A stretch of DNA of 64,000 bases. Origin: Zophobihabitans entericus. GTDB taxonomy: Bacteria > Pseudomonadota > Gammaproteobacteria > Enterobacterales > Orbaceae. Shown here piece by piece: positions 5,471 to 53,209 of the stretch. The notes under the pieces are model-generated. The model did not search any database. It was not told where the DNA came from and saw only the letters and a list, made by a program, of their open reading frames with translations. The position numbers and the translations under genes were made by a program. The stretch is from NCBI RefSeq assembly GCF_011745665.1, contig NZ_CP050253.1, forward strand, positions 2,145,418 through 2,209,417. The letters are read 5' to 3'. Every line of letters starts with the position of its first letter. The stretch's first letter is position 1.

Positions 5471-6215
5471 TTAAGCTGCAATAGTTAAGATATATTCCAC
5501 TTTAGCAATAATTTCAAACTTAACCTGACTATTTAATTGAATTAAATAATCTTTATATAACGGATTGTCACTATATATGATAACCATTTTCAATAGGATC
5601 GTATTGAATACGTTTAATTAGTAATGTGTTGTTTAAAGCAACAACAAAAATACCTTCAAGTGCTCCAAACCATGGTTTGATATTGATTAAAGCAATATCA
5701 CCATGAGTTAACAAACCATTTGAACTGTCACCAGAAATCGTGGTCATAAATAGATTTTCATTCAGTAGTTTTTCTTTGCGTAACCAGTTTTTACTTAGTG
5801 ACCATTGACCTAAAGTTTTGGGAGGATTCTCTTTATCAAGCAGACTATTGAAGTCAACTTCATTGATGAGGTAATTATTAGTTGAGCTGGCTGCTGTAAA
5901 GTTACCGCTGATATTATCATTTAATGTATAGCTGTTAGTATTTGTATCAGCAGGATCTTCACCAGTTGCTAGCCATGACACTGAGACATTCCCCACTTTA
6001 GCAATAATAAGTAAATTTTGTAGAGTCGGTTCAGAGTCACCACGAACATATTTTCTTATGGCACTTTCTGAAAGTTGACACATTTCAGCAAAAGTTGTCA
6101 TCGATTGCTTTCCAATAACAAAACGTAGCCTTTGTGCAAATGTATTTGTTTCTTCATTTATATTAGGCAAACTAGTGCTATCCGGGGAATTGCTTTTACT
6201 GTTGGCTATCATCAC
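5471..6215 (-). pseudogene. CI/LexA-like repressor (HTH plus S24 domain) with a C-terminal frameshift
   Basis: An N-terminal XRE-type helix-turn-helix occupies about residues 26-86 (ending SVSWLATGEDP, typical of phage-type repressors), followed by an S24 domain. The nucleophile is Ser164 in SGDSS and the likely base is Lys201 in LLIKRIQ. The frame stops after YHI at residue 214. In another frame the expected S24 ending continues at once (SDNPLYKDYLIQLN, then VKFEIIAKVEYIL) and stops at 5471. The break lies in a TA dinucleotide tract at 5572-5578; one extra TA unit would restore a protein of about 248 residues. The Ala-Gly autocleavage site usual in LexA was not seen. GTG at 6215 or the adjacent ATG could start, after GAAGGA. 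No other phage genes are nearby. Confidence 0.8.
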
Positions 6216-7025
6216 AATGAAATCCTTCTATTTATTTCTAAAATTTACTATCGTCCAATTGATAATAGTATGTACACATTATTTATATGAGTTAGTCCTT
6301 TGCTTAAGGCATGATCGCATAAAGAATTGAAAAAATAAAGTGACATAAGCCTGCTTTATGACGTACTTAATGGACATGTTTTAGATAATTCTTAATGAAT
6401 TTTTGATAAAAAAATCACATTAAATTTACTTTTTTGTAAAACAATTTACTAAAAAATAATAAAAAATTATCAATAATAATTTATCAGTATCAAAACCTCT
6501 TCTGATAAATTTGGTTTATGTGGTTAAAATAAGAGAGTGACATTAGAGGCTAATGATGGTTCTGATAAAAGAAGTTTTTGATTAAAAGAAAGAATGGATA
6601 ATGTTAAATTAATATCCAAAAATATGTATAAAAAAGTGAATGTCCGATGATTCATTTCAATAAAATAAACTGTGAAATTTAACTGCCATGCTGTTACTGA
6701 TTCTGGCGAATAAGCTGCAAGATAGCTCTAGGTATATTACAACCTTAAAACAAATAAATATAATGATTAACTATGAATATTATAATATCTGAATCATTCT
6801 AATTATGGGATTCTGACCAAAAAGAAAAAATATAAAAAGAATAAAAGTAATAATTATAGGTATTTTTGTCATAAAACGGATGTACTTATAAATAAAAAAA
6901 TCAGTATAGTAAAGAACCTAAAAGAGTATTTTTAGTTCAAAAAATAATCAAAACGGCACAAAAAGATAAAGTTTATTTTTATCTACATTTTATTATTGCT
7001 CATTATTTTATTGATATTTATTATA
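6216..7025. other. AT-rich intergenic region with no convincing gene
   Basis: This 810-bp stretch lies upstream of the repressor gene and beyond the 3' end of moeA. It is strongly AT-rich, more so than the neighbouring genes, and I see no reading frame with a plausible start and ribosome site. It contains several TCTGATAAA-type words and the inverted repeat listed separately. It may hold repressor control sites or be the remnant of an acquired segment. Confidence 0.6.
6479..6510. repeat. Perfect 9-bp inverted repeat, possible operator
   Basis: ATTTATCAG at 6479-6487 and CTGATAAAT at 6502-6510 are exact inverse complements separated by 14 bases. The site lies about 265 bp upstream of the repressor start. 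An operator or a hairpin are both possible; no experimental or comparative support is visible here. Confidence 0.4.
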
Positions 7026-50965: not shown

Positions 50966-53209
50966 TTACTTATCGTATTTCTTAGTTAAAAGTCGTAGGG
51001 CATTAGCGGTAACCAGAGCTGTTGTACCTGAGTCAGCTAAAACGGCAATCCAAAGACCAGTGATCCCAAGTACGCTGGTCACTAAAAAAATAGCCTTAAA
51101 GCCCAGTGCCAGAACAATGTTTTGGCGGATATTAGCGTTAGCAGCCCGGGCTAAACGAATCAATTTAGGCAGACTCACCAGACTGTTTTTACTTAAAGCG
51201 GCATCTGCTGTTTCTAGCGCCACATCAGTACCACTACCCATAGCAATACCTACTGTTGCTGCTTTCATGGCCGGAGAGTCATTAATACCATCACCAACCA
51301 TAGCAATAGGTGTGGTCAGGTTAATTTTTTCGATCTCTTTAAGTTTATCTTCCGGTAACAGCTCAGCCCGGTATTGCATATGTAGCAGTTCAGCAATGGC
51401 GTGAGCAGAACGCTGATTATCACCTGTTAACATGATAGAACTAATGCCAAGGTCATTAAGTTCTGCAATTGCCTGACTGGCTTCCGGACGGATTTCATCA
51501 CGCAGAGCAATCAGCCCCAGAACTTGTTGACCATCAGCAACCACAATGACAGTTTTGCCTTCATCTTCAAAGTCAGATATCTGTTTTTGATGAACTGGTG
51601 TAATTGTTAACTGTAATCGTTCAGCTTTATTTGGTGAAATAATTGAAATAAGCTGCTGATGTACTTCACCCTGAATACCAATACCTGCTAGAGACTGGCG
51701 ATTTTCTGCCTGCGTAAGCTCCACATTGAGTTCTTTTGCCTTATTAATCACAGCTTTGGCCAGCGGATGATGTGAACCGGCTTCAACAGCAGCGGCTAAA
51801 TACAGAAGTTCCTCATCAGTCAGGTTATTGGTGATAATATCGGTAACTTGTGGTTTACCTTCAGTTAAAGTTCCGGTTTTATCAAAGGCAATTGTTTTAA
51901 TCTGACCAAGTAGCTCAAGCGCTGCTCCGCCTTTAATTAACACGCCATTACGCGCCGCGGCAGAAAGGGCAGAGGTGATCGCTGCAGGAGTCGAAATAAT
52001 TAGTGCACATGGACAACCAATAAGTAGTAAAGTTAATCCACGATAAATCCATGGATACCATTCTTGCCCCATAAATAGTGGTGGAATAACCGCAATAAGC
52101 AACGCAACGAGTGTGATTGACGGAGTATAGTAACGACTAAACTTATCAATAAAGCGTTCAATCGGTGCTTTGCGTTCTTCAGCATCTTCAATCAGTTGTA
52201 AAATACGATCGACTGCATTTTGTCCCGGTTCAGACACTACTTTGAGTTGTACTGTTCGGTCAATAATCAAGGAACCAGCTAAGATTTTTGCGCCACTGCG
52301 ATATTCAACCGGAATTGATTCACCGGTTAAAGCACTTTCATCAATATTGGCAATCTCACTTATGAGTTCAACGTCAGCGGGCAAGCGACTACCGGAAGAG
52401 ATCTCAATAATATCACCGGGTACCAGCGATTTACTGGAAACGACTTCACGTTTGCCATCAACGATTTTCACGGTTTCTTCTGGCATAAGTGCCATAAGGG
52501 AAGAGATACCTTTTTTAGCTTTATTGGCAGCAATGGCTTCGAGCAGCTCACCAATTAAGAACAAGAAGAGCACCATTGAGGCTTCTTCTGTTGCGCCAAT
52601 AAACATCGCACCAATAGCTGAGATACTCATCAATGTTTCAATAGCAAAAAATGAGCCGGAACGAGCTAAGTTATACGATTTTTTTAAAATGGGAATTAAC
52701 CCAATAATGGTTGAGAGAATAAAGGCATATTGCCCGTATTCCTCATTAAAGAAGCTCAGGATAAAGCTGCCTGCAATCATCACTGCAAGTACACCTAAAT
52801 GGATAAAATCTTTTTTCTCCATTGAGTGTGAGTGTTGATGATTATGTTCTTCATCATCAAGCTGGAAACTATATCCAAGCGAAGTAATCTTATTTTCAAT
52901 TGCCTGACGAGTTTTATCATCATGTTCAGAGACGCTAACTACCAGTTTTTCTGTAGAGAAAACCGTTTTGGCTTTTACCACATTAGGTAGTCCAAGCACA
53001 CCACGCTCAATTTTTTGAGCGCAGCTTGGACAATCCATACCACTAATACGCCAGGTAAATGTGTCTGTGTCTGGAGTTGTAGTTGGCTGTGTATCGTCTA
53101 CATTATTTTGATGTTCATGTTCATGTTCATGTTCATGTGAAGCGTGCTCATGGTCGTGATTTTGGTGCGAATGAGAGGTTTCATTTTCAAATTTGTTATT
53201 ATATAACAT
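50966..53209 (-). CDS. zntA: Zinc/cadmium/lead-exporting P1B-type ATPase ZntA
   Basis: ZntA pumps Zn2+, Cd2+ and Pb2+ out of the cytoplasm. Of 747 residues (E. coli 732), the first 50 are His/Glu-rich, including HEHEHEHEH encoded by a tandem hexanucleotide. A heavy-metal-associated domain follows with GMDCPSCAQK. Then come the actuator motif TGESIPVE, the membrane metal site CPCALIISTPAA, the phosphorylated aspartate in DKTGTLTEG, and MVGDGINDSPAMKAA. ZntR normally controls it, but no ZntR-type operator was recognised upstream. It is convergent with deoB. Confidence 0.95.
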   Translation of the reverse strand: MLYNNKFENETSHSHQNHDHEHASHEHEHEHEHQNNVDDTQPTTTPDTDTFTWRISGMDCPSCAQKIERGVLGLPNVVKAKTVFSTEKLVVSVSEHDDKTRQAIENKITSLGYSFQLDDEEHNHQHSHSMEKKDFIHLGVLAVMIAGSFILSFFNEEYGQYAFILSTIIGLIPILKKSYNLARSGSFFAIETLMSISAIGAMFIGATEEASMVLFLFLIGELLEAIAANKAKKGISSLMALMPEETVKIVDGKREVVSSKSLVPGDIIEISSGSRLPADVELISEIANIDESALTGESIPVEYRSGAKILAGSLIIDRTVQLKVVSEPGQNAVDRILQLIEDAEERKAPIERFIDKFSRYYTPSITLVALLIAVIPPLFMGQEWYPWIYRGLTLLLIGCPCALIISTPAAITSALSAAARNGVLIKGGAALELLGQIKTIAFDKTGTLTEGKPQVTDIITNNLTDEELLYLAAAVEAGSHHPLAKAVINKAKELNVELTQAENRQSLAGIGIQGEVHQQLISIISPNKAERLQLTITPVHQKQISDFEDEGKTVIVVADGQQVLGLIALRDEIRPEASQAIAELNDLGISSIMLTGDNQRSAHAIAELLHMQYRAELLPEDKLKEIEKINLTTPIAMVGDGINDSPAMKAATVGIAMGSGTDVALETADAALSKNSLVSLPKLIRLARAANANIRQNIVLALGFKAIFLVTSVLGITGLWIAVLADSGTTALVTANALRLLTKKYDK

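Follow-up and report, generated by a model that had tools for sequence, protein, structure and literature searches.

The gene at positions 5571-6215 (minus strand) of the window, a stretch of 64,000 nucleotides of Zophobihabitans entericus contig NZ_CP050253.1, is probably (we put this at roughly 70%) an orphan Orbaceae regulator with a helix-turn-helix (HTH) and a degenerate S24-like domain, vertically inherited and recently inactivated by a two-base loss in Z. entericus IPMB12T, the one genome of the genus among those compared. The 214-amino-acid open reading frame (ORF), recognised from its premature TAG, its Pfam matches and eight intact homologues, carries an HTH_3 domain and an incomplete S24-like domain. 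It ends in ...IQYDPIENGYHI, followed by a TAG that overlaps a TATATAT run (5572-5578, as read on the plus strand, located by pattern count and alignment), exactly where the preliminary description had placed the stop. A further 33 C-terminal codons and their stop lie at 5471-5572 on the same strand in the +1 (equivalently –2) frame, reading SDNPLYKDYLIQLNSQVKFEIIAKVEYILTIAA from 5572 down to 5474 and then TAA at 5471-5473.

When aligned to the window, the Utexia orthologue splits into two adjoining pieces that lie in different frames (body, E = 1.6e-57; tail, E = 1.2e-4). The displaced tail matches the C termini of the homologues and, judged by this alignment, is a genuine homologous C terminus and not a chance match, which bears out the earlier claim that the end of the protein is kept in another frame. 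Compared with the Utexia and Schmidhempelia genes the window gene lacks two bases at the lesion site, in agreement with the proposal that it is one TA unit short, and the intact homologues cross this site in a single continuous frame and without a TA run. Relative to its intact orthologues the aligned gene is disrupted, and in that sense a pseudogene. A programmed frameshift would offer a different reading, in which a –2 ribosomal slip at CAUAUAUAG, with AUA re-pairing two bases back, yields some full-length protein. By eye such AUA-to-AUA re-pairing is possible right before the stop, and the –2 product would equal the homologues in length, but –2 ribosomal frameshifting is rare and all eight intact homologues are single-frame genes without such a run, making this reading extremely improbable.

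Homologues were sought in 60 genomes including the window's own; 41 of these gave a match at 1e-5, which in many cases covered only the HTH part. Outside the window genome there are eight strong homologues, with E between 1.3e-58 and 2.3e-46, each from a different genome of the genera Utexia, Schmidhempelia, Frischella and Orbus, and all eight are open frames encoding proteins of 231-256 residues; weaker matches were left out of the comparison. Two of the weaker HTH-S24 relatives, both from other genomes of the same bacterial family, contain an internal stop (G012:C1:1630775-1631080, TGA; G016:C53:5175-5402, TAA) and are possibly broken regulators too. Scanning genome contigs with an alignment as the query recovered three relatives (Candidatus Schmidhempelia bombi, Orbus hercynius and Frischella japonica); with the single window protein as the query no relative was confirmed. 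The intact HTH-S24 orphan regulators of Utexia (L008), Ca. S. bombi (L119), O. hercynius (L120/L013) and F. japonica (L121/L010) have the same architecture as the window gene, with identities to it of 48-51% (body) and 36-52% (tail). They are complete, whereas the window copy carries a frameshift close to its C terminus.

The window protein scores 35.8 bits against the Pfam HTH_3 profile (cut-off 23), hence a Cro/CI-type helix-turn-helix is present. Its truncated S24 domain reaches 18.5 bits against a cut-off of 23.3 and covers profile positions 26-84 of 116, while the match extends to positions 108-116 in the three intact homologues scanned, of which Utexia (27.8 bits) and O. hercynius (25.7 bits) score above the cut-off and Schmidhempelia (15.2 bits) below it. 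A profile of phage repressors, PHROG 4, matches residues 18-210 (E = 4.9e-25), and because of this family match the protein is probably a DNA-binding repressor. NCBIfam profiles matched the window protein only below their curated cut-offs, and no sequence of a solved structure was matched by the regulator profile at E 0.01. A structure prediction for the intact Schmidhempelia homologue, made from a four-sequence alignment, had a pLDDT of 46.6, too low for any use. The HTH, the S24-like domain and a lysine (K201) that is invariant in the alignment of the intact homologues are shared with the self-cleaving LexA/S24 repressors. The position that we take to be that of the catalytic serine of LexA differs, however: read by eye, it holds Ser in the window gene and in Utexia but Asn in the other seven of the eight intact homologues and in a paralogue described below, so that most of the homologues, although their lysine is invariant, would be unlikely to self-cleave.

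The resemblance to phage repressors does not extend to the location of the gene, which sits among housekeeping genes. Its neighbours in the window are acpH, ychF, rsmC and moeA, names that, like all those given here for neighbouring genes, we presume from the translations. The Utexia homologue likewise lies between moeA, with msrA/msrB-like genes intervening, and acpH/ychF; that of Schmidhempelia is near ychF and rsmC-holD, and that of O. hercynius is ∼4 kb from rsmC-holD. This common moeA / acpH-ychF-rsmC-holD neighbourhood across the Orbaceae relatives points to a chromosomal regulator that would have been inherited vertically, outside any prophage. We therefore rejected a prophage CI repressor on the housekeeping flanks and the similar surroundings in Utexia, as judged from the presumed gene names. 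A pattern-seeded scan of IMG/VR gave 53 pattern matches, among which no viral relative was confirmed. Of the earlier designation as a CI/LexA-like repressor, the architecture thus stands, and what falls away is any recognisable prophage context and, in seven of the eight intact homologues, the serine of self-cleavage.

The AT-rich 5′ region of the gene (6216-7025, minus strand) contains, by eye, a candidate promoter. The elements CTTTATTTTT...ATGCGATCAT at 6311-6340 recur, as read by eye, upstream of the regulator genes of Utexia (gene at L008:1429) and Schmidhempelia (gene at L119:1349), and may represent a conserved promoter that is intact in the window. Just upstream of the gene, at window positions 6246-6270, there is also an inverted repeat, TACTAT-N13-ATAGTA (by eye), a candidate autoregulatory operator.

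The preliminary description gave a recent lesion as one of two readings, and the divergence of the two parts of the gene is consistent with this. In the body, window-Utexia identity is 51%, window-Schmidhempelia 49% and Utexia-Schmidhempelia 56%; in the 33-residue tail the corresponding values are 42%, 45% and 61%, and the gap between the window gene and the sister genera is thus wider in the tail than in the body. The window gene keeps 56 of the 61 residues before the lesion that are invariant in the other eight genes and 5 of the 6 after it (54/60 and 5/6 in a second alignment), and when Utexia or Schmidhempelia is left out in the same way they keep 56/59 and 56/60 in the body, respectively, and 5/6 each in the tail. 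Invariant body residues are accordingly lost five times in the window gene, three times in Utexia and four times in Schmidhempelia, and two residues that both of these relatives have after IKP, namely QG, are missing from the body of the window gene. A slight relaxation before the break is possible on these numbers, and since the excess divergence over the sister genera is small the lesion looks young.

The preliminary description had also raised the possibility of a switchable repeat, that is, a phase-variable TA tract in which slippage toggles the repressor. The gene resembles slippage-based phase-variable dinucleotide tracts in that its frame would shift with the repeat number, the lesion sits precisely within the run, and both gene parts keep their coding character, but the run is a mere 3.5 units long, is not conserved and does not qualify as a long simple repeat. 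The window contains 14 matches to TATATAT, where shuffled sequence gives a mean of 17.9. In a 464-kb sample of the genome there are 36 runs of alternating A and T that are exactly 7 bases long, and 18 of these fall inside ORFs of at least 100 aa. Runs longer than this are scarce in the sample (none of 9 bases and one each of 10 and 11), so that a run two bases longer, as in the putative ancestor, would rank among the longer ones, which speaks for a switch to some extent and also makes it reasonable to ascribe the deletion to slippage. At this position the paralogue and all eight intact homologues are free of a TA run. The mismatch repair genes mutS, mutL and mutH were each matched once above the cut-off, in a frame free of stops, which gives no support to a defect in mismatch repair as the cause of the deletion. 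The dinucleotide tract of Mycoplasma mycoides, in the accessible part of PMC3498834, is longer, at 12 AG units, and no reversible TA switch of this kind was found in the accessible parts of the literature on phase variation in Orbaceae. With a commonplace 7-base run, no counterpart of it in the homologues examined and open mutS, mutL and mutH, nothing in this one genome marks a dedicated switch, and the suggestion of a switchable repeat, which also sits poorly with the different kind of lesion in the paralogue, is very unlikely to hold. Elsewhere, the longest alternating A/T run inside an ORF of at least 100 aa in the sample has 11 bases (L057, 7472-7482), and the window contains a perfect hexamer repeat, ATGTTC, of 4.7 copies at 53111-53138.

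A sequencing or assembly error, with the gene intact in the organism, would fit a body and tail that are both well preserved, and a short TA run is where one might plausibly arise. The genome search lists a completeness of 91.69 for the window genome and of 99-100 for the 35 others of the same family, which favours an error as well, but the accessible part of PMC11434166 (Table 1) gives CheckM 99 and BUSCO 98 for the IPMB12T assembly, together with 2 contigs, an N50 of 2,634,037 and a G+C content of 39.3%. The window contig is 2,634,037 bases long in a two-contig genome, and the G+C content of the 464-kb sample is 39.3%; the first 20,000 bases of the second contig (C2, 32,446 bases) gave no plasmid match, in a comparison from which the genome's own record may be excluded. 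We surveyed frameshifts by aligning 984 Utexia ORFs (1.2 Mb) to the 464 kb of the window genome (the window and 20 further stretches) at 40% identity and E 1e-3 for further pieces, which detects a frameshift only where both pieces align and misses short displaced ends. Among the 127 genes that passed (40,069 aligned residues), a stop or a change of frame of any kind was present in seven, and only one, the present regulator gene, was frameshifted. The other six comprise five stops near an end and a stop at residue 32 of hisG; the window's own ORF begins shortly after this last stop. With query and target exchanged, a stop or frame change was seen in 8 of 119 genes, three of them with an interior stop or frameshift, one being a frameshift; at a stricter identity of at least 50%, which places the regulator gene outside the tested set, 4 of 93 genes were flagged for a stop and none for a frameshift. 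As far as the survey can detect them, indels are not abundant in the assembly. The 126 genes without a frameshift and a paralogue broken by another type of lesion both speak against an error, which we regard as unlikely. The dating of the lesion as recent stands up, with intact homologues in four other genera, at most slight further decay and frameshifts otherwise rare in the tested part of the assembly.

Each of the eight other genomes has one strong match, whereas Z. entericus has two close copies. The second (C1:904588-905271, equivalent to L005:1393-2076, minus strand) is 47% identical to the window gene over the matched stretch and lies between trxB-like and nitroreductase-like genes. It is open apart from one TAG, which lies in frame in the linker between its HTH part (119 residues) and its S24 part, and of the residues that do not vary among the eight intact genes the HTH part keeps 35 of 39 and the S24 part 17 of 26. 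Two further, weaker matches in the window genome are both to the HTH part. S24 domains were found at six places in the genome at E 0.01, of which the two of the present regulator type are broken and the four others are open. As the only other close copy is also interrupted, by the in-frame TAG, the present regulator type appears, from these sequences, to be without function altogether in Z. entericus IPMB12T. The alternative that the truncated protein works as an altered regulator, for example a non-inducible or dominant negative one, would fit the retained HTH and most of the S24-like domain and the little excess divergence, but the part lost is the end of the S24 profile, retained in the three homologues scanned, and the paralogue is interrupted at a different place; we consider it very unlikely.

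Inactivation by the two-base loss would then have proceeded from an ancestral orphan Cro/CI-type HTH regulator with a degenerate S24-like C-terminal domain, residing in the moeA / acpH-ychF-rsmC-holD neighbourhood. Two bases would have been lost, probably via slippage at the TA run, and the resulting frameshift would end translation 33 residues early, removing the profile positions of the S24-like domain after 84 of 116. The truncated repressor is expected not to fold or dimerise normally and hence to have lost its function, and the genes it represses, perhaps with its own promoter among the targets, would as a result escape control.

Frameshifted regulator genes are common in symbionts and mostly ordinary, and the present case looks like a recent gene loss of this ordinary kind and not like a genetic switch. 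The accessible parts of the literature on Orbaceae genomes and pseudogenes, Zophobihabitans, phase variation and Gilliamella repressors, including PMC13372188 and PMC11434166, yielded no account of this gene, which becomes a candidate for re-sequencing once another isolate exists. A rather doubtful extension is that both copies were recently knocked out by different lesions as loss of repression was favoured in the host or in culture, or else that the TA run in the window copy acts as a reversible switch. What sets the case apart is that both close copies of an otherwise conserved regulator are broken, each differently, in a genome with few frameshifts in the sample tested, which suggests that in Z. 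entericus the function of this regulator may be dispensable or its loss favoured.
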